A stretch of 40,878 nt of DNA, from assembly GCA_949297015.1 (NCBI GenBank), contig CASFRF010000042.1, positions 1-40,878 on the forward strand. Reading direction: 5' to 3'. The translations under genes and the position numbers were made by a program. Of this stretch, positions 15,754-26,956 are shown one piece after another. This DNA is from an uncultured bacterium (GTDB lineage: Bacteria > Verrucomicrobiota > Lentisphaeria > Victivallales > Victivallaceae). Position 1 is the stretch's first letter, and the number at the start of each line of letters is the position of its first letter. The notes beneath the pieces were generated by a model. It made no database searches. It was not told the origin of the DNA and was given only the letters and a program-made list of their open reading frames with translations.

Positions 15754-16850
15754 AGTCGTGGACGGAGTGGTTGCGCGAGGTGGTGGCGGGTGCCCGCCCG
15801 GATCGCGCCGGATTGCGCCGGATGCTCGAACTGGAGAAGCCGGCGGAGCTGGCGGAGCTCTATCGCGCCGCCTATCAGGTGAAGCTCGCGGAGGTGGGCA
15901 ACCAAGTCCGGTTGCGCGGGTTGATCGAGATTTCCAACTACTGCACCAAAAATTGCTATTACTGCGGAATCCGGCGCGACAACCGCGCGGTGCACCGGTT
16001 CGCACTGACCTTGCCGGAGATCCGGGCGGCGGCGACGCACGCCTGGGAGTTCGGCTACGGCTCGGTGGTGCTGCAGTCCGGCGAGCGCAGCGACCCGGAG
16101 TTCGTCGACTACATCGAGCAGGCGGTCCGGGAGCTCAAGGAGTTGTCCCGGGGCGAGCTGGGGATCACCCTCTCCTGCGGGGAGCAGTCGGCGGCGACCT
16201 ACCGGCGCTGGTTCGCCGCCGGAGCCCACCGCTATCTGCTGCGGATCGAGAGCAGCACGCCGGAGCTCTACCGGGCGCTCCATCCGGCCGATCATGACTA
16301 CGCGGAGCGCCGGGCCTGTCTCGGGCGGTTGCGCGAGGCGGGGTTCCAGGTCGGGACCGGGGTGATGATCGGTCTGCCCGGGCAGACCGTGGACCATCTG
16401 GTCAACGATCTGGAGTTCTTCCGGGAGCTCGACATCGACATGATCGGCATGGGCCCCTATCTGCCGCACTCGGAGACCCCCCTGGGGCGCGCCGTTCACG
16501 ATTTCGACCCGGAGCGACAGCTGACGCTCGGGCTCAAGATGATCGCCGCCGCGCGGCTCAGTCTGCGCGACGTCAACATCGCCGCGACCACCGCGCTTCA
16601 GACCCTGGCCCCGGACGGGCGCGAGCGCGGACTGCTGGCCGGCGCCAACGTGATCATGCCCAACGTCGGAGAGGTCGAGCACCGGCCCGATTATTTGCTG
16701 TACGACCACAAGCCCGGGCTGGACGAGAACGCGGCGGAAAGCCGCGAGCGGCTGGAACAGTCGCTGCTGGCGATCGGCGAGCAGCTGGCACCGGGGGAGT
16801 GGGGGGATTCCCCGCATTTCGCCCGGCGGCGTGGAGGATCCCGCGCATGA
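15750..16850 (+). CDS. hydE: Radical SAM protein HydE ([FeFe]-hydrogenase maturase family)
   Basis: A 366-residue radical SAM enzyme. The iron-sulfur cluster motif is C65-x3-C69-x2-C72 in NYCTKNCYYCGIRRDN. VVLQSGERSD, ITLSCGEQS, YLLRIESSTPELYRALHP, GVMIGLPGQT and DIDMIGMGPYLPH all match the HydE family, which makes part of the dithiolate bridge of the hydrogenase H-cluster. HydE usually works with HydF and HydG; neither those nor a hydrogenase gene lies in this window. HydE-like proteins also occur without hydrogenases, so the role should be treated as probable. It overlaps both neighbours by four bases. Confidence 0.8.
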   Translation: MKSWTEWLREVVAGARPDRAGLRRMLELEKPAELAELYRAAYQVKLAEVGNQVRLRGLIEISNYCTKNCYYCGIRRDNRAVHRFALTLPEIRAAATHAWEFGYGSVVLQSGERSDPEFVDYIEQAVRELKELSRGELGITLSCGEQSAATYRRWFAAGAHRYLLRIESSTPELYRALHPADHDYAERRACLGRLREAGFQVGTGVMIGLPGQTVDHLVNDLEFFRELDIDMIGMGPYLPHSETPLGRAVHDFDPERQLTLGLKMIAAARLSLRDVNIAATTALQTLAPDGRERGLLAGANVIMPNVGEVEHRPDYLLYDHKPGLDENAAESRERLEQSLLAIGEQLAPGEWGDSPHFARRRGGSRA

Positions 16851-18244
16851 AACCGCATCTGCCTCCGGTTATTGTGCTGCATCGCGATCCCGACGTGGTG
16901 GCCCGGCTCGAAACCGGTCTGAAAAGCCGGGGTGTGACCCGGGTGATCATCGCCGACGGCGCCTCCGAGGTCGGCTGGGAGCTGCAGAAGGAGTGCCCGC
17001 TGGCGCTGCTGCTGGGGGCGCGGCTGGAGGGGGACCGCTCGGCGCTGGAGCTGGTCGGACTCTATCATCGCGTGCAGCCGACGCTGCCGATCGTGGTCTG
17101 CGGCGAGGAGGCGGATCTGGAGACCGGGCTGCGCTTCATGCGGGCGGGCGCCGCCGATTATCTGGTGCCGCCGTTTGATCTGGCCCGGCTCTGGCAGCGG
17201 GTGCAGCGCGAGCGGAACCGGGTGCTGGAGTCCTGCGCCTCGCTGGACTCCGTGGAGCGTTTCACCGCTTCGATCGTCACACGCGACCCGCGGATGCTGC
17301 AGCTCTTTGACTACTGCCGGAACGTGGCGGCCAGCCCGCGGCCGGTGCTGATCACCGGCGAAACCGGAGTCGGCAAGGAACTTTTCGCCGAACTGCTGCA
17401 CCGGATGTCGGGGCGTCCCGGCAAGCTGGTGGCGGTCAACATCGCCGGACTGGACGATACGCTGCTTTCGGATACGTTGTTCGGCCATCGCCGCGGAGCC
17501 TACACCGGTGCAGTGGACGACCGGGCCGGCGCGCTCGAACAGGCGGGCGGCGGGACCGTGCTGATCGATGAAATCGGCGATCTTTCGCTGTCGGCCCAGA
17601 TCAAGCTGCTGCGCTTGCTGCAGGAACAGGAGTACTCGCCGCTGGGGTCGGACGAGGTCCGGCGGACCGAGGCCCGGATCGTGCTGGCCACGCACCGGGA
17701 TCTCTTCGCGTTGCAGCAGGAGGGGCGTTTCCGGGCGGACCTCTATTACCGGATCTACACCCACCGGCTGCTGATTCCGCCGTTGCGGGAACGGCTGGAC
17801 GATCTGCCGCTGCTGCTGAACGCCTTCATCGCCTCCAGCGCCGCGGCGCTGCACCGGCCGCCGCCGGGTTATCCGGCGGAGTTGCTGACGCTGTTGCGCC
17901 ATTACTCGTTTCCGGGGAATATCCGGGAACTGGAGAGCATGGTCTTCGACGCGGTGAGCTGCTGCCGCAGTGCGATGTTGAGTCTGGACTCGTTCCGGGA
18001 GCATCTGGAGAGCCGGAACCGGCCGGCCTCGTCGCCGGAGGAGCCGATTGAGGCGGTGATCCGGCGACTGAGCCGGCTGCCGCCGCTGAAGAGCGTGACG
18101 CGGCTGCTGATCGCGGAGGCGCTGCGCCGGAGCGGCGGCCATCAGAGTCTGGCCGCGCGGATGCTGGGAATCACGCCGCAGGCGATCAATTCACGGCTGC
18201 GGCGATTGCGCTCGGAGTCGAAGGCGGAAACGGAGGGGGCCTGA
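16847..18244 (+). CDS. Sigma-54-type AAA+ transcription activator with degenerate receiver
   Basis: A 465-residue protein with three parts. Residues 1-125 look like a response-regulator receiver, but the phosphoacceptor aspartate is replaced by glycine (LLLGARL, about Gly57) and the conserved lysine by proline (YLVPPFD), so classical phosphorylation is unlikely. Residues about 140-370 form the AAA+ module with Walker A GETGVGKE (171-178), the sigma-54 contact loop as GAYTGA (217-222), Walker B LIDEIGDL, and FRADLYYRI. Residues about 420-455 form a Fis-type helix-turn-helix. The ATG at 16847 overlaps the hydE stop, with GGAGG 9 bases upstream. It may regulate its own operon or distant genes; no clear -24/-12 site was found in the window. 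Confidence 0.85.
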   Translation: MKPHLPPVIVLHRDPDVVARLETGLKSRGVTRVIIADGASEVGWELQKECPLALLLGARLEGDRSALELVGLYHRVQPTLPIVVCGEEADLETGLRFMRAGAADYLVPPFDLARLWQRVQRERNRVLESCASLDSVERFTASIVTRDPRMLQLFDYCRNVAASPRPVLITGETGVGKELFAELLHRMSGRPGKLVAVNIAGLDDTLLSDTLFGHRRGAYTGAVDDRAGALEQAGGGTVLIDEIGDLSLSAQIKLLRLLQEQEYSPLGSDEVRRTEARIVLATHRDLFALQQEGRFRADLYYRIYTHRLLIPPLRERLDDLPLLLNAFIASSAAALHRPPPGYPAELLTLLRHYSFPGNIRELESMVFDAVSCCRSAMLSLDSFREHLESRNRPASSPEEPIEAVIRRLSRLPPLKSVTRLLIAEALRRSGGHQSLAARMLGITPQAINSRLRRLRSESKAETEGA

Positions 18245-18285
18245 CCTCCCGGGGCGGGGAGCGCCTGAAAAAAAGTGGAAAAAAA

Positions 18286-19107
18286 ATGAAAAAAAACTGG
18301 AAATCCCGGGGGTTTGGGATTACATTATTAAATCTCCTGCTGTGCGGGTGGCTTGTGCCTGCCCTGACGGCGGAGGAACCGGCGCCGGAAACGGCCCCGG
18401 GGGTGACGATCGAGCTGGAACCGAGAGATGCTGCCCGGCTTCAGGCTCTGGAGGACACCCGCCGGGAGCTGGAGGCGGCGCGGGAAGAGATGCGGAAGCT
18501 GCAGCAGGAACTTCGGCAGGCGGCCGAGGCGGACCGGCGGCGGAACCGCGAGTTGCTTGAATTGACGACCAAGTTTCAACAGCAGAATGAGGCGAACCGG
18601 CAACTGCAGTTGCTGGTCTCGGGGCTGGCGGCGGAGACCGCCGGGCGGCCCGGGGACCGGGAAGGGCAACTGGGCGAACAGTTGAGTCGGGAGCGGGAGG
18701 CAGGGAAGGCCCTCGCTCTCGGGGCGGCTTCGTTCTGCGAACTGGCGGAGCGGTTGCTGAAGGCGGCGGATCAAGGGAAGGGTCCGCCGGCGGAGTTTGC
18801 GCTGGCGAGCGAGGAACTCCGGCAGCTGAGTCGCCGGTTCATCAGCATGACCACGCCCGGAGTGGCGTCGCGGGAACTCGAAAGATGCAGGATTCTCGCG
18901 GTGGACCGGGAGCGGTCATTCGTCATACTGCCCGTGGGGATCCGGCAAGGTGCGTTCAATGGCCTGATCTACCATGTAGGGAAGGGATCGGTAAAGCTCA
19001 AAATCGTCGGGGTGCGACCCGATGTGGCGGCGGCGGTGCCGATCACCGGCAGGATTGACGACCTCGCTCCGGGGATGGAGGCCGTGACCGACGAAAAGAG
19101 AGAATAA
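18286..19107 (+). CDS. Secreted coiled-coil protein of unknown function preceding the ribosomal cluster
   Basis: A 273-residue protein with a signal peptide (MKKNWKSRG, hydrophobic core, cleavage near PALTA, about residue 29). Residues about 48-105 form a long coiled coil rich in E, R, Q and L (LEDTRRELEAAREEMRKLQQ), and residues 110-185 are also helical. The last 85 residues look beta-rich: RCRILAVDRERSFVILPVG, GAFNGLIYHVGKG, and a final LAPGMEAV. I do not recognise a named family. The protein probably works in the periplasm or at the envelope. The gene starts 41 bases after the regulator gene and ends 19 bases before rplV, so it appears to head the ribosomal protein transcript, an odd place for an exported protein. 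Confidence 0.75.
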   Translation: MKKNWKSRGFGITLLNLLLCGWLVPALTAEEPAPETAPGVTIELEPRDAARLQALEDTRRELEAAREEMRKLQQELRQAAEADRRRNRELLELTTKFQQQNEANRQLQLLVSGLAAETAGRPGDREGQLGEQLSREREAGKALALGAASFCELAERLLKAADQGKGPPAEFALASEELRQLSRRFISMTTPGVASRELERCRILAVDRERSFVILPVGIRQGAFNGLIYHVGKGSVKLKIVGVRPDVAAAVPITGRIDDLAPGMEAVTDEKRE

Positions 19108-19126
19108 ACAAACAAGAGACCGGATT

Positions 19127-19459
19127 ATGGAAGTTAGAGCTTTGACCAGAAATGTGCGGATTTCGCCGGAAAAGGCGCGGCACGTTTCCCGTCTGATCCA
19201 GGGCAAGTCCGCCACGGAGGCGCTGGCGATTGTCGATCTGTGCCCGCGCAAGGCAGCCCGGCTGATCGCCGACACCCTGCGTTCTGCGGTGGCCAATGCC
19301 GAAAACAATCATGATTTGAGCCGGAAAGATCTGCAGGTGAAAGCCGCGACGGTCAGCCCCGGTCCGCTCATCAAGCGTTTTCGCGCCAAAGCCCGCGGTT
19401 CCGCCGGCCGGATCCGGAAGCGGACCAGCCATCTGGAAGTTGTCTTGACGGATATTTAA
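19127..19459 (+). CDS. rplV: Ribosomal protein uL22
   Basis: The 110-residue product matches L22, which binds 23S rRNA and lines the exit tunnel. Visible signatures are ISPEKARHVSRLIQGKSATEAL, SAVANAENNHDLS and the C-terminal KARGSAGRIRKRTSHLEVVL. Normally rpsS precedes rplV; here the preceding gene encodes a secreted coiled-coil protein. The initiating AGAGACC-like leader carries no strong Shine-Dalgarno sequence. Confidence 0.97.
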   Translation: MEVRALTRNVRISPEKARHVSRLIQGKSATEALAIVDLCPRKAARLIADTLRSAVANAENNHDLSRKDLQVKAATVSPGPLIKRFRAKARGSAGRIRKRTSHLEVVLTDI

Positions 19460-19476
19460 GGTAAGGGGATTGCATT

Positions 19477-20169
19477 GTGGGACAAAAAGTAAATCCGATC
19501 GGATTGCGGACCGCGCTGACCAAGAATTGGGAGTCCCGCTGGTTTGCGGGCAAGGCGTTGTTCGGCGAATGGCTCCATGAGGATCTCAAGATTCGCAAGT
19601 TCATCAAGGAGAAATTCGCGGCGGCGGCGATTGCGCGGATTCAGATCGAGCGTTTTGCCAGCCGGGTGCGGGTGACCATTTTCGCGGCGCGTCCGGGGCT
19701 GTTGATCGGCAAGAAGGGCGCGGAGCTGGATGCCCTGCGTCAGGATATCACCAAGCTCACCGGGAACAAGGAAGTGTTCGTCGAGATCGGCGAGATCCGG
19801 CGGGCGGAGGCGAATGCTCAGCTGGTGGCGGAGAACATCGCGCAGCAGCTGGAGCGGCGGATCGGGTTCCGTCGGGCCATGAAGCGGTCGATTCAGACGG
19901 CCATGGATATGGGCGTGGACGGAATCAAGATCAACTGCGCCGGACGTCTGGGCGGGGCGGAGCTGGCCCGCGAGGAGCAGTACAAGGAAGGCCGGGTGCC
20001 GCTGCACACGTTGAAGGCCAATATCGATTACGGTTTCACCGAGGCGAACACCACCGCCGGCAAGATCGGGGTGAAGGTTTGGATTTGCCACAAAGAGGGT
20101 ACGGAGGATCAGGATTATGCCGTTAATGCCAAAAAGAGTAAAGTACAGAAAGGTTCAGCGCGGAAGTAA
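19477..20169 (+). CDS. rpsC: Ribosomal protein uS3
   Basis: The 230-residue protein begins with [14 protein letters not shown] from a GTG start and contains the KH-domain core ([20 protein letters not shown]) and the [21 protein letters not shown] block of S3. It helps form the mRNA entry site of the small subunit. Its C-terminal 17 codons (from about GCC GTT AAT) overlap the start of rplP in a different frame by 53 bases, far more than the short gaps usual between these genes. Overall length is normal, so the overlap reflects a shifted rplP start rather than an obvious S3 extension. Confidence 0.97.
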
Positions 20170-20530
20170 TGCCGGGTTGTCCACCAGCAACAACAAGCTG
20201 GATTTCGGCGACTATGCATTGCAGGCGTTGACCAGAGGGTACGTTACCAACAATCAGATTGAAGCGGCTCGTGTGGCGATCAACCGTCACCTGAAGCGTC
20301 GGGGCAAAGTGTGGATTCGGATGTTCCCGTTCCGCTCGTTTACCAAGAAGCCGCTGGAAGTGCGTATGGGCAAGGGCAAGGGAAATGTCGAAGGCTGGGT
20401 GGCTCCGGTGAAGCCGGGTCGGGTGCTGTTCGAGGTTTCCGGCTGCAGCGAGGCGGTGGCGCGCGAGGCGATGAGCCGTGCGGCGAACAAGCTTTGTCTG
20501 CGGTGCAAGTTCCTGGCGCGCGAAGAGTAG
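20117..20530 (+). CDS. rplP: Ribosomal protein uL16
   Basis: The 137-residue L16 starts [16 protein letters not shown], the standard N-terminus, and has GRVLFEVSG and [14 protein letters not shown]. It is part of the tRNA-binding side of the large subunit. The ATG at 20117 lies inside rpsC and is supported by GGAGG at 20103-20107, nine bases upstream. A second ATG at 20126 (MPKRV) is possible and would still overlap rpsC by 44 bases. Confidence 0.97.
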
Positions 20531-20533
20531 AGG

Positions 20534-20737
20534 ATGGCCATGAAGTACAAACAGATCAAAGAAATGACCGATCAGGAGCTGGAGAATCAGCTCGGCGAGC
20601 TGCGGCGGGAGAAACTGAATCTCGCGATCCAGTCCCGCACCGGTCAATTGGAAAAGACCGCCCGGGTCCGGGAAGTTCGTCGCACCATCGCGCAGATCTT
20701 AACCGAAAAGGCGGTTCGCGCCAACGAGGTGAAATGA
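20534..20737 (+). CDS. rpmC: Ribosomal protein uL29
   Basis: A 67-residue helical protein with the L29 pattern ([23 protein letters not shown], then [15 protein letters not shown]). It sits near the exit tunnel of the large subunit. It starts three bases after rplP and its TGA overlaps the rpsQ start (ATGATGA). Confidence 0.95.
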
Positions 20738-21009
20738 TGAGTGAAGTACAGGAACGCGGTCACCGCAAAGAGCGCGTCGGCGTGGTGGTCAGCGATGTGC
20801 AGGATAAGACGATTGTGGTGAATGTGGATCGCCGCACGCCGCATCCGTTGTATGGCAAGATCATGAAGGTGCGCAAGAAGTTCACGGCGCATGACGAGGA
20901 GAATCAGGCGAAGAAGGGCGATACCGTCCGGATCGTCGAGACCCGTCCGCTGAGCAAGAACAAGCGCTGGCGCCTGGTGGAGATTCTGGCCCGGGCGGAG
21001 CAGGAATAA
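20734..21009 (+). CDS. rpsQ: Ribosomal protein uS17
   Basis: S17, a primary 16S rRNA binder. [31 protein letters not shown] and the [16 protein letters not shown] segment are family signatures. Two adjacent ATG codons (20734, 20737) are available; GAGGT lies 4 bases before the first and 7 before the second. Both overlap the rpmC stop codon. The frame is open far upstream, but only this start gives an S17-like N-terminus. Confidence 0.95.
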
Positions 21010-21027
21010 CGCGAAGGAGCAGGTAAA

Positions 21028-21393
21028 ATGATTCAGATGCAGACGATTCTGCAGGTTGCCGACAACTCCGGAGCGAAGTCGCTGCTGACCATCACCGTGC
21101 TCGGTCAGGGCAAGACCATCGCCGGGATCGGCGATGTGGTGACGGCGGCGGTTCAGGAAGCGATTCCGGACGGCAGCGTCAAGAAAAAGCAGGTGGTCAA
21201 GGCGGTGATCGTGCGGACCAAGGCCAAGATCCGTCGTCCGGACGGGTCGTATCTGCGGTTTGACGAGAACGCCGCGGTGATCATCGACAAGGACAAGAAC
21301 CCGGTCGGCACCCGTATTTTCGGGCCGGTCGCCCGTGAGCTGCGCGAAAAGGATTTCATGAAGATCATTTCGCTGGCGCCGGAGGTGTTGTAA
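21028..21393 (+). CDS. rplN: Ribosomal protein uL14
   Basis: The 121-residue product begins [19 protein letters not shown] and contains [21 protein letters not shown] and [13 protein letters not shown], all diagnostic of L14, a subunit-interface protein. GAAGGAG lies upstream of the ATG. rplX begins three bases after its stop. Confidence 0.97.
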
Positions 21394-21396
21394 CTT

Positions 21397-21657
21397 ATGA
21401 AGAAATTTCACGTCAAGAAGGGCGATAAGGTCAAGGTCAACGCCGGCAAGTTCAAGGGCGAAGAGGCGACCATCGCAGCCGTGCTGGCGGATAAGGACCG
21501 GGTGGTGCTGGAGCTGGCCGACAAAAATCTGAAGACCGGGCGTCGCACGCTCAAGAAGAGCAAGGCCAATCCCAACGGCGGAATGATCGAGCGCTCGGTT
21601 TCGGTGCACGTCTCGAACGTCAACAAGGTCGGCGGCGCCGAGAAGCAGACGGAGTAG
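21397..21657 (+). CDS. rplX: Ribosomal protein uL24 (short form)
   Basis: An 86-residue L24, the assembly-initiating protein of the large subunit. The KOW motif region (HVKKGDKVKVNAGKFKGEEATI) and NPNGGMIERSVSVHVSNVNKV are clear. Bacterial L24 usually has about 100-105 residues; here the protein stops shortly after the VSNV block and lacks the usual C-terminal RVGF...KKVR segment. The stop is followed immediately by rplE and I see no sign of a frameshift, so the short form looks genuine. Confidence 0.93.
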   Translation: MKKFHVKKGDKVKVNAGKFKGEEATIAAVLADKDRVVLELADKNLKTGRRTLKKSKANPNGGMIERSVSVHVSNVNKVGGAEKQTE

Positions 21658-21663
21658 TGCAAA

Positions 21664-22200
21664 ATGCCTGACATGAGCAAAAAATACAAGGAAGAGGTCC
21701 GTCCCGCGTTGCAGTCGAAGTACGGCATCAAGAATGTGATGCAGATTCCGAAACTGACCAAGATCGTGGTCAGCACCGGAGTCAAGACCAGTGCCGAGCG
21801 CGATGCGATTCCGGAGGCGGTGAAGCATCTGGCGGCGCTGACCGGCCAGAAACCGGTGGTGACCAAGGCGCGCAAGAACGTGGCGAACTTCAAGCTGCGT
21901 GTGGGTATGCCGATCGGCGCGATGGTGACGTTGCGTGGCAGCCGGATGTACGAGTTTCTGGACCGTTTCGTTCACAACGTGATGCCGCGCGTGCGCGACT
22001 TCCGCGGGATTCCGAAAGACGGTTTCGACGGCTTCGGCAACTACAATGTCGGTGTGCGGGACGTTTCGGTGTTCACCGAGATCGACCCGGACAAGCTCAA
22101 GTATCCGCTGGGCGTCAACATCACCATGGTGACGACCGCCGGCAGCAAGGAACAGGCGTTCGATCTCCTGAAGCTGCTCGAAGTGCCGTTTGCGGAATAA
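21664..22200 (+). CDS. rplE: Ribosomal protein uL5
   Basis: The 178-residue L5 binds 5S rRNA in the central protuberance. [55 protein letters not shown] and the final [20 protein letters not shown] match the family. It follows rplX after six bases and precedes the zinc S14 gene. Confidence 0.97.
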
Positions 22201-22213
22201 GGGGAAGGAAATC

Positions 22214-22399
22214 ATGGCTAAAACCAGTTTGATCGTCCGGTCGCTCCGTGACAATAAGTTCAAAGTTCGCAACTACACCCGGTGCAAAGCCTGCGGACGG
22301 GCCCGTGCCTACATCCGCAAGTTTCAGCTGTGCCGGATCTGCTTCCGGGAGCTGGCCTCCAAGGGACAGATTCCGGGCGTCACCAAGGCGAGCTGGTAA
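22214..22399 (+). CDS. rpsN: Ribosomal protein uS14, zinc-binding type
   Basis: A 61-residue S14 of the short type Z form, with four zinc cysteines in [20 protein letters not shown]. The start [10 protein letters not shown] at 22214 is preceded by AAGGAAA; an in-frame upstream start at 22190 lies within rplE and adds residues not found in the family. The zinc form is common in non-proteobacterial lineages. Confidence 0.96.
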
Positions 22400-22414
22400 G
22401 GAGGGAGTGGACAA

Positions 22415-22810
22415 ATGAGTATGCAAGATCCGATTGCCGATATGTTGACCCGGATCCGCAATGCGGGTGCCGCCGGTCTGGAGTCGGTGGTGATTCCGGG
22501 CTCGAAGCTGAAGGCGGCGATCGCCGAAGTGCTGAAGTCCGAGGGCTACATCCGGGATTGCCGGGTGGTCGCCGATGGTCCGAAATCCGAGCTGGTGGTC
22601 ACGCTGAAGTACAGCGACGGAAAACCGGTGATTGAAGGACTTGAGCGGGTGAGCAAACCCTCCCGCCGCGTCCATTGCGGCAGCCGCGAAGTGCCTCTGG
22701 TCCGGCGCGGTCTGGGCACGGTGATCCTGTCGACGCCGAACGGCGTGATGTCCGGCCGGCAGGCGGCCAAGTCGAACGTGGGCGGCGAAGTTCTCTGCTA
22801 CGTTTGGTAA
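22415..22810 (+). CDS. rpsH: Ribosomal protein uS8
   Basis: The 131-residue S8 shows [34 protein letters not shown] and the C-terminal [20 protein letters not shown] block. It binds the central domain of 16S rRNA, and in E. coli it represses this operon by binding its mRNA near rplE; whether that holds here cannot be seen. GGAGG precedes the ATG. Confidence 0.97.
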
Positions 22811-22837
22811 TCTAAATTTGACTGAAGGATTGTAGAT

Positions 22838-23371
22838 ATGTCTCGAATTGGAAAGAAACCGATTGCGGTTCCACCCTCGGTCAAGGTGTCGCTCGACGCC
22901 ACGGCCGTGACCGTGGAAGGCAAGGCCAAGCTGGCGCTGACCTTGCCGCCGCTGGTATCGGTGGAGCAGCAGGGGGCCGAGCTGTTTGTCCGGCGCGCTG
23001 ACGATTCCGCCGCCTCCAGTGCGATGCAGGGACTGGCCCGGAGTCTGATCAACAACATGGTGATCGGCGTGACCGAGGGCTTCAAGAAGGAGCTGGCGAT
23101 CGTCGGGGTCGGCTACAAGGCGGCGCTGTCCGGCAGCAAGCTGACGCTGAACCTCGGGTTTTCGCACCCGATCGAGTTCCAGATTCCGGAAGGGATCAAG
23201 ATCACGGTGACCGACGGCACCAAGATTCTGGTCGAGGGCGCGGACAAGCAGCTGGTCGGCGAGACCGCTGCGACCATCCGGCGGTTCCGTCAGCCGGAGC
23301 CCTACAAGGGTAAGGGCGTGCGCTATGCGGACGAGCGCGTGATCATTAAGGAAGGCAAGTCCGTTGGATAA
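22838..23371 (+). CDS. rplF: Ribosomal protein uL6
   Basis: The 177-residue L6 begins MSRIGKKPIAVP and contains RSLINNMVIGVTEGFKKEL, GVGYKAAL, NLGFSHPIEFQIPEGI and EPYKGKGVRYADE. It lies near the factor-binding site of the large subunit. The 27-base gap to rpsH is among the longest in the ribosomal run, exceeded only by the spacer before secY. Confidence 0.97.
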   Translation: MSRIGKKPIAVPPSVKVSLDATAVTVEGKAKLALTLPPLVSVEQQGAELFVRRADDSAASSAMQGLARSLINNMVIGVTEGFKKELAIVGVGYKAALSGSKLTLNLGFSHPIEFQIPEGIKITVTDGTKILVEGADKQLVGETAATIRRFRQPEPYKGKGVRYADERVIIKEGKSVG

Positions 23372-23390
23372 GGAAAAGGTAGCGTAAATC

Positions 23391-23753
23391 ATGGCTGTCA
23401 AAGATAAAAACGTATTGCGCGCCCGGCGCCATCTGCGGATCCGCAAGAAGGTCTCCGGCACCGCGGCCAAGCCGAGATTCTGCGTGAGCATCACGGCGCA
23501 CCACATCTACTGCCAGTTCATCGACGACGAGGCGGGCAAGACCCTCGCGGCGGCTTCGACGCTCTCTGCGGCCTTCAAGGGCGAGGGCAAGAGCGCCAAT
23601 CTGGAGGGGGCGGCGGTGCTCGGCAAGCTCGCGGCGGAAGCGGCGAAGAGTGTCAATATTTCGGAAGTGGTGTTCGACCGCTCCGGGTTCCGCTATCACG
23701 GCCGGGTCAAGGCGATCGCCGAGGCCGCCCGTGAGGCCGGACTGAAATTTTAG
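23391..23753 (+). CDS. rplR: Ribosomal protein uL18
   Basis: The 120-residue L18 has the 5S rRNA-binding pattern [26 protein letters not shown] and the C-terminal [28 protein letters not shown]. It follows rplF after 19 bases and precedes rpsE by 11. Confidence 0.97.
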
Positions 23754-23764
23754 GAGTTCAGACT

Positions 23765-24277
23765 ATGGCGAGACGAGAAAATTTCAAGTCGGAAGAACCG
23801 GTGCAGAGCGAGTTCGAAGAGAGCGTCATCAGCATCAACCGCAGCGCGAAGGTGGTGAAGGGCGGCAAGAACTTCAGCTTCGGCGCGCTGGTGGTGGTCG
23901 GGAACCGCAACGGCCGGGTCGGCTACGGCTACGGCAAGGCCAACGAGGTCTCCGATGCGATCCGCAAGGGCGGCGAAGTCGCCCGCCGGAACCTGGTGGA
24001 CGTGCCTCTGGCCGGCAACACCATTCCGCACGATATTGAAGTGAAGTTCGGCGGCGCCCGGGTGCTGCTCAAGCCGGCCGGTCCCGGTACCGGTCTGATC
24101 GCCGGCGGCGCGGTCCGCGCGATTCTGGAGCTGGCGGGCGTGGCCGACGTGCTGGCCAAATCGCTGGGCGCGGCCAACGCGGCCAACGTGGCCAAGGCGA
24201 CCTTCAAGGCGATTGCCGGGCTCTCCACCCGCGAGATGGTGATGGCTCGCCGCGGTCTGTCCGCGGACAACAAATAA
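23765..24277 (+). CDS. rpsE: Ribosomal protein uS5
   Basis: The 170-residue S5 contributes to decoding accuracy. [44 protein letters not shown] and [22 protein letters not shown] are the family hallmarks. It is followed after nine bases by rplO; the rpmD (L30) gene that often lies between them is absent. Confidence 0.97.
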
Positions 24278-24286
24278 GGAGCGATT

Positions 24287-24733
24287 ATGAAACTGCACGA
24301 AATGAGTCCGAATCCCGGTTCGCGCAAGCGGCGCAAACGGGTCGGCCGCGGTGACTCCTCCGGCATGGGCAAGACCTGCTGCCGCGGCGAGAAGGGGCAG
24401 AAGTCCCGGACCGGAGCTAAGATCCGTCCCTTCTTCGAGGGCGGTCAGATTCCGCTGTTCCGGCGGTTGCCGAAGCGCGGCTTCAACAGCCCGGACCACA
24501 AGGAGTACGAGCTGGTCAACCTGAGTCTGCTCGACGAGCACTTCGCCGCCGGCGAGGTGGTCGACGTCGAGTCGCTCCGGGCCAAGAAGCTGCTGGCCAA
24601 GAACGAGCGTCCGCTCAAGGTCCTGGCCAACGGCGAGATCACCAAGAATTTGACCGTCAAGGCGGACAAGTTCTCGGCGGCGGCGGTGGCCAAGATCGAG
24701 GCTGCCGGCGGCCAGGCCGTGGTGGTCGAGTAG
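24287..24733 (+). CDS. rplO: Ribosomal protein uL15
   Basis: The 148-residue L15 starts MKLHEMSPNPGSRKRRKRVGRGDSSGMGKT, has the glycine- and arginine-rich GEKGQKSRTGAKIRPFFEGGQIPLFRRLPKRGF stretch in pieces along residues 35-70, and ends in a VAKIEAAGGQAVVVE domain. It joins several 23S rRNA domains. An 80-base spacer with a strong hairpin separates it from secY. Confidence 0.96.
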   Translation: MKLHEMSPNPGSRKRRKRVGRGDSSGMGKTCCRGEKGQKSRTGAKIRPFFEGGQIPLFRRLPKRGFNSPDHKEYELVNLSLLDEHFAAGEVVDVESLRAKKLLAKNERPLKVLANGEITKNLTVKADKFSAAAVAKIEAAGGQAVVVE

Positions 24734-24744
24734 GCAAATTCGCA

Positions 24745-24781
24745 GACCGCGGGCCGGGTGCGGGAAACCCGGCGCGCGGTC
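24745..24781 (+). other. Stable hairpin between rplO and secY
   Basis: GACCGCGGGCCGGGT (24745-24759) and ACCCGGCGCGCGGTC (24767-24781) form a 15-base-pair stem with one mismatch and a 7-base loop. No T-run follows, so it is not a typical intrinsic terminator. It could be an attenuator, an RNase processing site or a stability element. Confidence 0.6.
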
Positions 24782-24813
24782 GGCACTCACTTTAACACGG
24801 GTAGTTAGGGACT

Positions 24814-26175
24814 ATGTGGGCGGCATTTTGTAACATTTGGAAAATCAAGGAATTGCGCAGTCGGCTGCTGTTTACGGCGCTGATCATTGTGCTGGTGCGC
24901 TTTGCCAGTAACATCCCGTGTCCCGGGGTGGACCCGGTGGCGCTGGAGAACTTCATCCACAAAATGAGTTCCTCCTCCGATACCGCCAGCGGCTTTATGA
25001 ACATGATCGACATCTTTTCGGGCGGCGCGCTGGCCCAGTTCGCGCTGGGGGCGCTGGGCATCATGCCCTACATCACCGCCTCGATCATCTTCCAGCTGCT
25101 GGTGCCGGTGATCCCCTCGCTGGAAAAAATGCAGCGCGAGGGCGAGACCGGACGCCAGAAGATCACCCAGTATACCCGTTATCTGACCATTCTGGTCTGC
25201 ATTATTCAGGGCACCATGGTCGCGGTGGCCATGATCAATCCGACCCGTCTGGGTCTGGGCACGCCGGACCAGCCGCTGGTGCTCGGCAACGCCGGGGTGT
25301 TTCTGGTCTCGGCGGTCATCGTGCTGACCTGTACGACCATGGTCTTCATGTGGCTCGGCGAACAGATCACCGACCGCGGCATCGGCAACGGGGTTTCGTT
25401 GATCATCACCATCGGCATCGTTTCCCGGTTGCCGGTCGCGGTGATCGATCTGATTCAGATGGCCCTCAAGGGCGAGACGCCCGACGGCAACACCTTCCGC
25501 CCGGTTCAGTTGCTGTTGCTGCTGCTGGTCTTCGCCGTGGTCACCGCCGCCACCATTCTGCTGACCCAGGGCTACCGCCGGGTGCCGATTCAGATGGTGC
25601 GCAAGACCGTGGGCAGCCAGCTCACCGGCGGCAGCACCTACATGCCGCTCAAGGTCAACTTCGCCAACGTGATGCCGATCATTTTCGCCGGCGCCATCCT
25701 GATGTTTCTGGTGCCGATTCTGGGCTGGTTCAAGCTCTATGGACTGGCCGCGATGTTCCAGCCGAGTCATTCGGGCTACATGATCGCCGAAGGTCTGCTG
25801 ATTCTGGCCTTCAGCTTCTTCTGGGTCGCCAACCAGTTCAATCCGATCCAGATCGCCGACAACCTGAAGAAGGAGGGCGCCTACATCCCCGGCATCAGTC
25901 CCGGCAAGGCCACCGCCGACTTCCTGGACACCGCGATGACCCGGGTGACCTTCGGCGGCGCGATCTTCCTGATGGCGCTGGCGCTGTTCCCGAGTTTCCT
26001 CTACTCCAATTTCGGCATCCCCTTCATGGTGGCGCAGTTCTTCGGCGGCACCAGTTTGCTGATCATGGTCGGCGTGGTGCTCGACACCATGCGTCAGCTC
26101 GAATCGCATCTGACCATGCGCAACTACGAGGGATTTTTGAAGAGCGGCCGCTTGCGCGGGCGCTCGGGGAACTGA
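24814..26175 (+). CDS. secY: Protein translocase subunit SecY
   Basis: The 453-residue membrane channel of the Sec machinery. The N-terminal IKELRSRLLFTALIIVLVRF, plug-region segment FSGGALAQFALGALGIMPYITASIIFQLL, EGETGRQKITQYTRYLT, GIGNGVSLIITIGI, and the cytoplasmic PIQMVRKTVGSQLTGGSTYMPLK loop are diagnostic. About ten membrane helices can be traced. It is the last gene of the spc-type run. The adk, map, infA and rpmJ genes that often follow are not present; cmk comes next after a 112-base structured spacer. Confidence 0.97.
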   Translation: MWAAFCNIWKIKELRSRLLFTALIIVLVRFASNIPCPGVDPVALENFIHKMSSSSDTASGFMNMIDIFSGGALAQFALGALGIMPYITASIIFQLLVPVIPSLEKMQREGETGRQKITQYTRYLTILVCIIQGTMVAVAMINPTRLGLGTPDQPLVLGNAGVFLVSAVIVLTCTTMVFMWLGEQITDRGIGNGVSLIITIGIVSRLPVAVIDLIQMALKGETPDGNTFRPVQLLLLLLVFAVVTAATILLTQGYRRVPIQMVRKTVGSQLTGGSTYMPLKVNFANVMPIIFAGAILMFLVPILGWFKLYGLAAMFQPSHSGYMIAEGLLILAFSFFWVANQFNPIQIADNLKKEGAYIPGISPGKATADFLDTAMTRVTFGGAIFLMALALFPSFLYSNFGIPFMVAQFFGGTSLLIMVGVVLDTMRQLESHLTMRNYEGFLKSGRLRGRSGN

Positions 26176-26233: not shown

Positions 26234-26266
26234 CGGGACACAAGGGGCGTGTACTCTTGTGTCCCG
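26234..26266 (+). other. Hairpin 3 in the secY-cmk spacer
   Basis: CGGGACACAAG (26234-26244) and CTTGTGTCCCG (26256-26266) form a perfect 11-base-pair stem with an 11-base loop. It ends 21 bases before the cmk ATG. No T-run follows. Confidence 0.55.
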
Positions 26267-26287
26267 AATTGGTTTACAGGGTGGCGA

Positions 26288-26956
26288 ATGTCCAGCAAAG
26301 TGATTGCAATCGACGGGCCGGCGGCTTCCGGCAAAAGTACGGCGGCCGCCGGGGTGGCCCGGGCGCTCGGAATTCCCTATGTCAACACCGGGAGTCTCTA
26401 CCGGGCGGTGGCGCTGCTGGCCGGGAACGAGCTCGATCCGGTGCCGGAACGGGTGTTGAGTCGGCTGCAGCTGGCCTATCTGCGCAATGCCGACGGGGAG
26501 TTTGAACTGGCCATCGACGGCCGCTTCCCCGGCGCCGTGCTGCGTCGGCCGGAGATCGCGGCCGGGGCCAGCCGGGTGGCGACTCAGCCCGCGGTGCGCG
26601 CCGCACTGCTCGAACTCCAGCGGAAAATGGCGGAGAACGGCTGGCTGGTGATGGAGGGGCGGGACATCGGCACGGTGGTGTTTCCGGACGCCGCCTTCAA
26701 GTTTTTCATCACCGCTTCTCCTGAGGAGCGGGCGCGGCGGCGGCTGGCGCAAGCCGGTGAGACGCCGGACGGCGCCACGCTGGAGGAGGTGGCCGCCGAA
26801 ATCCGCAAGCGGGATGAGCAGGACGCCGGGCGGGCGGTGGCGCCGCTGCGGCCCGCGCCCGGTGCGGTTCTGGTGGATACGACGGATTTGACCGCCGAAG
26901 CGGTGAAGCGGCGGATTCTCAACCTGGTGGAGAGGAGTGTATGTACCACGAAATGA
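26288..26956 (+). CDS. cmk: Cytidylate kinase
   Basis: CMP kinase phosphorylates CMP and dCMP with ATP. The 222-residue protein starts KVIAIDGPAASGKSTAA (P-loop), continues with YVNTGSLYRAVAL, and has VMEGRDIGTVVFPDA and FFITASPEERARRR, all family signatures. The ATG at 26288 places the P-loop at the usual distance from the N-terminus; an in-frame GTG at 26249 lies within the loop and stem of the upstream hairpin and adds 13 unconserved residues. It overlaps the ybgC-like gene by 16 bases. In many bacteria cmk precedes rpsA, which is not so here. Confidence 0.95.
   Translation: MSSKVIAIDGPAASGKSTAAAGVARALGIPYVNTGSLYRAVALLAGNELDPVPERVLSRLQLAYLRNADGEFELAIDGRFPGAVLRRPEIAAGASRVATQPAVRAALLELQRKMAENGWLVMEGRDIGTVVFPDAAFKFFITASPEERARRRLAQAGETPDGATLEEVAAEIRKRDEQDAGRAVAPLRPAPGAVLVDTTDLTAEAVKRRILNLVERSVCTTK

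Follow-up and report, generated by a model that had tools for sequence, protein, structure and literature searches.

A gene for a predicted exported coiled-coil protein at the rpsS–rplV junction of Verrucomicrobiota and its place in the split S10-spc cluster of Lentisphaeria

The S10-spc cluster ranks with the longest gene arrays that are conserved in bacteria (PMC2837039). In the Lentisphaeria genome studied here the cluster is split, and its rplV half is headed by a gene for a predicted exported coiled-coil protein. We consider it probable that this gene was inserted between rpsS and rplV early in the phylum Verrucomicrobiota, that in Lentisphaeria the operon later broke between rpsS and the gene, and that the arrangement ties an envelope protein to growth. 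Since the plain, inserted, and split states coexist in living relatives, they reveal directly in what order the events took place. The initial annotation of this DNA had taken the coiled-coil gene to stand in place of the missing upstream genes; its observation was confirmed and its interpretation was borne out in part, with an old insertion followed by separation taking the place of the supposed replacement. It is unusual for the S10 operon to hold, across much of a phylum, a gene for a non-ribosomal exported protein, and the arrangement points to an uncharacterised envelope family whose expression is likely growth-linked. No earlier report of the coiled-coil gene or the split arrangement was found in the literature searched.

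The two halves of the cluster

The window, that is, the whole stretch of 40,878 nucleotides that was analysed, is one entire contig (G000:C42) of a draft Lentisphaeria genome (96 contigs, 83% complete). Its L22 is 87% identical to that of an uncultured Victivallis sp., the closest named relative. The features at and around the coiled-coil gene are as follows (positions in the window).

16799–18244, + strand: sigma-54-dependent response-regulator gene, same direction as the coiled-coil gene (Pfam)
18245–18285, + strand: 41-base gap between the regulator gene and the co-directional coiled-coil gene (ORF positions)
18286–19107, + strand: gene for a predicted exported coiled-coil/beta-barrel protein of 273 aa, heading the rplV half (ORF)
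18301–18354, + strand: N-terminal hydrophobic helix, residues 6–23, putative signal peptide or membrane anchor (AlphaFold2)
18421–18636, + strand: long coiled-coil helix, residues 46–117 (AlphaFold2, pLDDT >90 across most of it)
18655–18852, + strand: helical region, residues 124–189 (AlphaFold2)
18883–19089, + strand: C-terminal small beta-barrel, residues 200–268, the most conserved part (AlphaFold2 of the domain alone; alignments)
19108–19126, + strand: 19-base gap from the coiled-coil gene to rplV (rplV ATG at 19127)
19127–19459, + strand: rplV (L22; Pfam PF00237, 1.8e-33)
19477–20169, + strand: rpsC (S3; Pfam PF00189)
20117–26175, + strand: remaining S10-spc cluster, rplP to secY (Pfam matches)

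The ORF at 18286–19107 (+) begins with MKKNWKSRGFGITLLNLLLCGWLVPALTA. Its coordinates agree with the description of a gene that heads the rplV half and ends 19 bases before rplV, and the Pfam matches after S3 (L16, L14, L24, L5, S8, L6, L18, S5, L15, and SecY) bear out the usual S10-spc arrangement from rplV to secY. The gene adjoining the coiled-coil gene upstream varies between relatives. Runs of eight A flank the start codon of the coiled-coil gene (18276–18302; AAAAAAAATGAAAAAAAACTGG) and are a possible slippage site; A-rich starts of this gene are also seen in several relatives. After secY, where adk, map, or infA is usual, the window has cmk (cytidylate kinase, 26249–26956), and a cmk-like gene likewise follows secY in G025 (locus L208); the cluster may have a second break at secY/cmk.

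The genes that normally precede rplV (rpsJ, rplC, rplD, rplW, rplB, and rpsS), annotated as missing, lie elsewhere in the same genome. A search located the whole block on one other contig, in the order rpoC-rpsL-rpsG-fusA-rpsJ-rplC-rplD-rplW-rplB-rpsS, with single copies of rpsJ (G000:C67:28595-28879(-)) and rpsS (G000:C67:25803-26042(-)). The rplV gene, which directly follows rpsS in a canonical S10 operon, is thus on a different contig here. One base separates the fusA stop from the rpsJ start. A terminator-like hairpin with a T run lies ~24 bases 3' of the rpsS stop, and the next Pfam-detected gene beyond rpsS is on the opposite strand.

The separation of rpsS and rplV is a class-wide trait of Lentisphaeria. 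Among the 104 genomes of the class in which both genes were found, none had the two adjacent; they were on different contigs in 98 and on one contig in six, 37 kb to 2.1 Mb apart. One apparent exception (G035) was set aside, as it has two copies of both genes and 6% contamination; its second, adjacent rpsS–rplV pair (G035:C6) is probably foreign sequence in the bin. In the phylum sample, the coiled-coil gene lies directly before rplV in 42 Lentisphaeria genomes including that of the window, and three of them (G009, G025, and G047) are single-contig. An assembly error at 19107–19127 that joined the coiled-coil gene to rplV, with rpsS as the true neighbour, had been raised in the initial annotation, and the draft state of the assembly is in favour of it. 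The same adjacency recurs in 41 other Lentisphaeria assemblies, however, among them the three single-contig ones, and rpsS has its own terminator-like hairpin followed by an opposite-strand gene. A misjoin has a negligible probability and is already refuted by the independent assemblies. The cluster is therefore split as annotated, with one correction of the break site, which is between rpsS and the coiled-coil gene and not exactly between rpsS and rplV.

Homologues at the rpsS–rplV junction and the order of events

A family profile HMM was built from 16 Lentisphaeria sequences and then iterated, and loci were labelled as plain, inserted, or split by profile searches. In the fetched rplV loci of Lentisphaeria and Verrucomicrobiae, the Lentisphaeria-only HMM matched only upstream of rplV, with E-values down to 1.2e-15 for Verrucomicrobiae members, and its iteration picked up short members retaining the C-terminal domain alone. 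Alignment of the Lentisphaeria and Verrucomicrobiae profiles with hhalign gave a probability of 98.9% (E 1.5e-17, 208 columns), and the profile-profile comparison of Verrucomicrobiae with the short members gave 97.5%. Paralogues away from the ribosomal cluster were observed at L202:4319-5910, L203:4999-5748, and L207:4601-5347; they share the anchor helix, the coiled coil, and the C-terminal domain, and the two tandem paralogues of L202 are beside dnaX-like and YbaB-like genes.

The family was matched in 153 of the 195 genomes of the phylum sample. Among the genomes with the rplV position listed, the match immediately precedes rplV in 42 Lentisphaeria genomes and in 54 others. Of the 67 genomes compared outside Lentisphaeria, 66 have rpsS and rplV on one contig, with the domain matches 49 to 1159 bp apart (often about 400–1160), and the larger gaps examined hold a homologue of the coiled-coil gene. 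The order rpsS–gene–rplV was counted in 27 loci and gene–rplV in 54 (Lentisphaeria). In the unbroken operon, the inserted gene lies 0–44 bases from rpsS and 0–65 bases from rplV; the median spacing to rplV is 20 bases there and 22 bases in Lentisphaeria. The comparison of rplV upstream regions across the phylum, suggested earlier as a check, thus places the gene before rplV in Lentisphaeria and between rpsS and rplV in others. Because its homologues lie inside the unbroken operon of related classes, the gene is an older insertion retained with rplV and does not stand in for missing genes. The order is plain rpsS–rplV, with gaps <200 bp, in 54 outgroup loci from Bacillota and other phyla, and the profile search found no family match in them. 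Kiritimatiellia-like and Opitutales-like families without a match also occur; losses or several gains are therefore needed.

In a phylogeny based on L22 and S3 together (102 rows), Verrucomicrobiae carry the insert with few losses. One locus with the insert (L080) groups with a Kiritimatiellia-like clade (support 100/99), the other members of which have plain or separately split clusters. Since this insert lies outside Verrucomicrobiae, one early gain followed by losses fits. In Lentisphaeria the gene heads the rplV half, and the basal branches have no firm order, so that one split event in the class is not proven. The two genes are also separated in family f34, another lineage of Verrucomicrobiota (genomes G148, G257, G143, G195, G237, and G259; loci L192, L195, and L197–L200), by ~566 kb in the single-contig G257, and no family member was found before rplV in the f34 loci. 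On the simplest reading this split would be independent of that in Lentisphaeria, and in the simplest overall history an early insertion would have been followed by separation in Lentisphaeria, by several losses, and by the independent f34 split. In the genus g15, a member of the same family as the window, the cluster begins with rplV, whose upstream neighbours vary, and the gene is found at a distance or on a separate contig (G014, G063, G067, G069, G081, G099, G130, and others; loci L030, L064, L066, L067, and L069). Adjacency is not essential in g15, since the cluster kept working with the gene moved.

A different history would have the gene gained beside rplV in Lentisphaeria only, after the split, the Verrucomicrobiae insert being an independent, related paralogue. 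Paralogues of the same architecture elsewhere in Verrucomicrobiae genomes indicate that the family can move or duplicate, and the loose order at the base of the tree leaves space for separate gains. However, two independent insertions would hardly be expected to hit one junction and both to lie close to rplV, and L080 has the insert outside Verrucomicrobiae. The rplV-linked members also outscore the paralogues with the family profile, which is suggestive only, as the profile includes rplV-linked members. We regard independent gains as quite improbable.

According to the preferred reading of an early insertion, the gene for an exported, anchored coiled-coil and beta-barrel protein would have been acquired between rpsS and rplV in ancestral Verrucomicrobiota, as the tree and gene order suggest. 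The split observed in Lentisphaeria would go back to one rearrangement of the chromosome between rpsS and the coiled-coil gene in the ancestor of the class. It would have left rpsJ–rpsS fused behind fusA and ending at the terminator-like hairpin, as seen in the window's own genome, and the coiled-coil gene would thereby have become the first gene of the rplV–secY unit.

The encoded protein and the control of the rplV–secY unit

The AlphaFold2 model of the whole protein has a mean pLDDT of 83.8, and its helices at residues 6–23 and 46–117 are consistent with the initial description of an exported coiled-coil protein. The C-terminal barrel modelled alone has a pLDDT of 86.4 and a pTM of 0.74, and in the alignments it is the sole domain retained in short members. 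A hydrophobic N-terminal segment is present in 81 of the 82 family members, suggesting that the protein is exported or anchored. The dN/dS values of 13 pairs range from 0.05 to 0.46, all <0.5, and the protein diverges fast, with an identity of ~42% where that of rplV is 79–86%. These sequence comparisons indicate that the family is real and under purifying selection. Pfam and NCBIfam searches with the coiled-coil protein returned no family, only coiled-coil noise, and the family is thus undescribed in these databases. Judging from its architecture, the protein most likely works in the cell envelope as a structural or assembly factor that is anchored and self-associates. The neighbours of the paralogues and of the relocated g15 copies gave no functional clue.

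The position in the operon would tie synthesis of the protein to ribosome production and growth. We tentatively propose, as one possible reading, an undescribed envelope family that is ancestral to Verrucomicrobiota and kept in the S10 operon to coordinate the assembly of an envelope structure with that of the ribosomes; the barrel would be its functional core, as the short members suggest. Alternatively, the protein could have no link to growth, the gene being kept because its removal disturbs rplV expression, by carrying a promoter or coupling translation. The low sequence identity and the removal of the gene from rplV in one genus (g15) fit such a passenger. Purifying selection and the conserved C-terminal domain speak against it, as do the relocated g15 copies, since a gene serving only as a spacer would have no reason to stay intact away from rplV, and we find this explanation unlikely.

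If the gene was inserted and then separated from rpsS as preferred here, the rplV–secY unit would have to start at a promoter upstream of the coiled-coil gene, as promoter-like motifs in relatives suggest. In G025 the gene upstream of the coiled-coil gene is divergent, and the unit therefore begins at the coiled-coil gene there. Of 52 Lentisphaeria loci, 9 have the extended −10 motif TGnTATAnT upstream of the gene, compared with 1.0 expected from shuffles (the loci are related and the counts not independent), and none of the 52 has it before rplV. No sigma-70-like promoter was recognised upstream of the coiled-coil gene in the window.

The initial annotation had also stated that control of the cluster must differ from the classical L4-based system. 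Rfam searches found no leader at either half and no structured leader upstream of rpsJ, where rpsJ follows the fusA stop too closely (1 base) to accommodate an S10 leader. Most ribosomal protein leader RNAs of E. coli are described as narrowly distributed to Gammaproteobacteria (Fu et al. 2013, as cited in PMC4647458 and PMC10931766). Outside Gammaproteobacteria, L4 control would not be expected, so that its absence is hardly informative and the statement holds only trivially. A role of the coiled-coil protein itself as a regulator of the cluster, replacing L4 control, would suit the first gene of the unit. Its signal or anchor helix should keep it from reaching mRNA, however, and neither an RNA-binding family nor a leader was found; this role was rejected on the predicted export signal, and we consider it extremely unlikely.

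Comparison with known systems

The protein resembles several known families in part. The FlgT C-terminal domain (PF16538) and TsaP, which are from exported envelope proteins, have a similar small beta-domain pattern with weak sequence matches: FlgT_C matched 6 of 65 members with a best E-value of 0.0086, too weak for membership, and TsaP matched with E 0.032, not significant alone. In contrast to them, the protein lacks LysM or FlgT N-terminal parts and has a coiled coil instead. The best Foldseek match of the C-terminal domain was the N-terminal beta-barrel of the F1-ATPase alpha subunit (TM ~0.65–0.71 on the query, E 2e-4). The likeness is in the fold only, as the protein has no ATPase domain and is predicted to be exported, and the F1-alpha hits of the whole model and the C-terminal domain were treated as fold resemblance alone. 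MreC shares the anchor helix, coiled coil, and beta-domain, whereas the protein here has one small barrel. The MreC match was weak and covered only the coiled coil (E 0.00023); MreC was absent among the Pfam matches listed for family alignment A4, the NCBIfam matches were weak, and the beta-domain was not matched.

In gene order, the rplV–secY and rpsJ–rpsS parts are each intact as in the canonical S10-spc cluster. The difference lies in the break, which separates rpsS from the insert, and in the upstream half, which is fused to fusA and ends at a terminator-like hairpin. The closest parallel is the invasion-separation route described for clusters of ribosomal protein operons in Gammaproteobacteria and Bacilli (PMC8046335), in which a gene is first inserted and the parts are then disconnected in a separate event. 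As in that study, living relatives show the stages here: the uninterrupted order in the 54 plain outgroup loci of other phyla, the intermediate with an unbroken operon in the 27 loci of the order rpsS–gene–rplV, and full disconnection in Lentisphaeria. The described route operates between operons, whereas the insertion here interrupts the S10 operon itself, at the rpsS–rplV junction. It spans Verrucomicrobiota, a phylum not covered by that study, and the gene remained attached to the rplV half.
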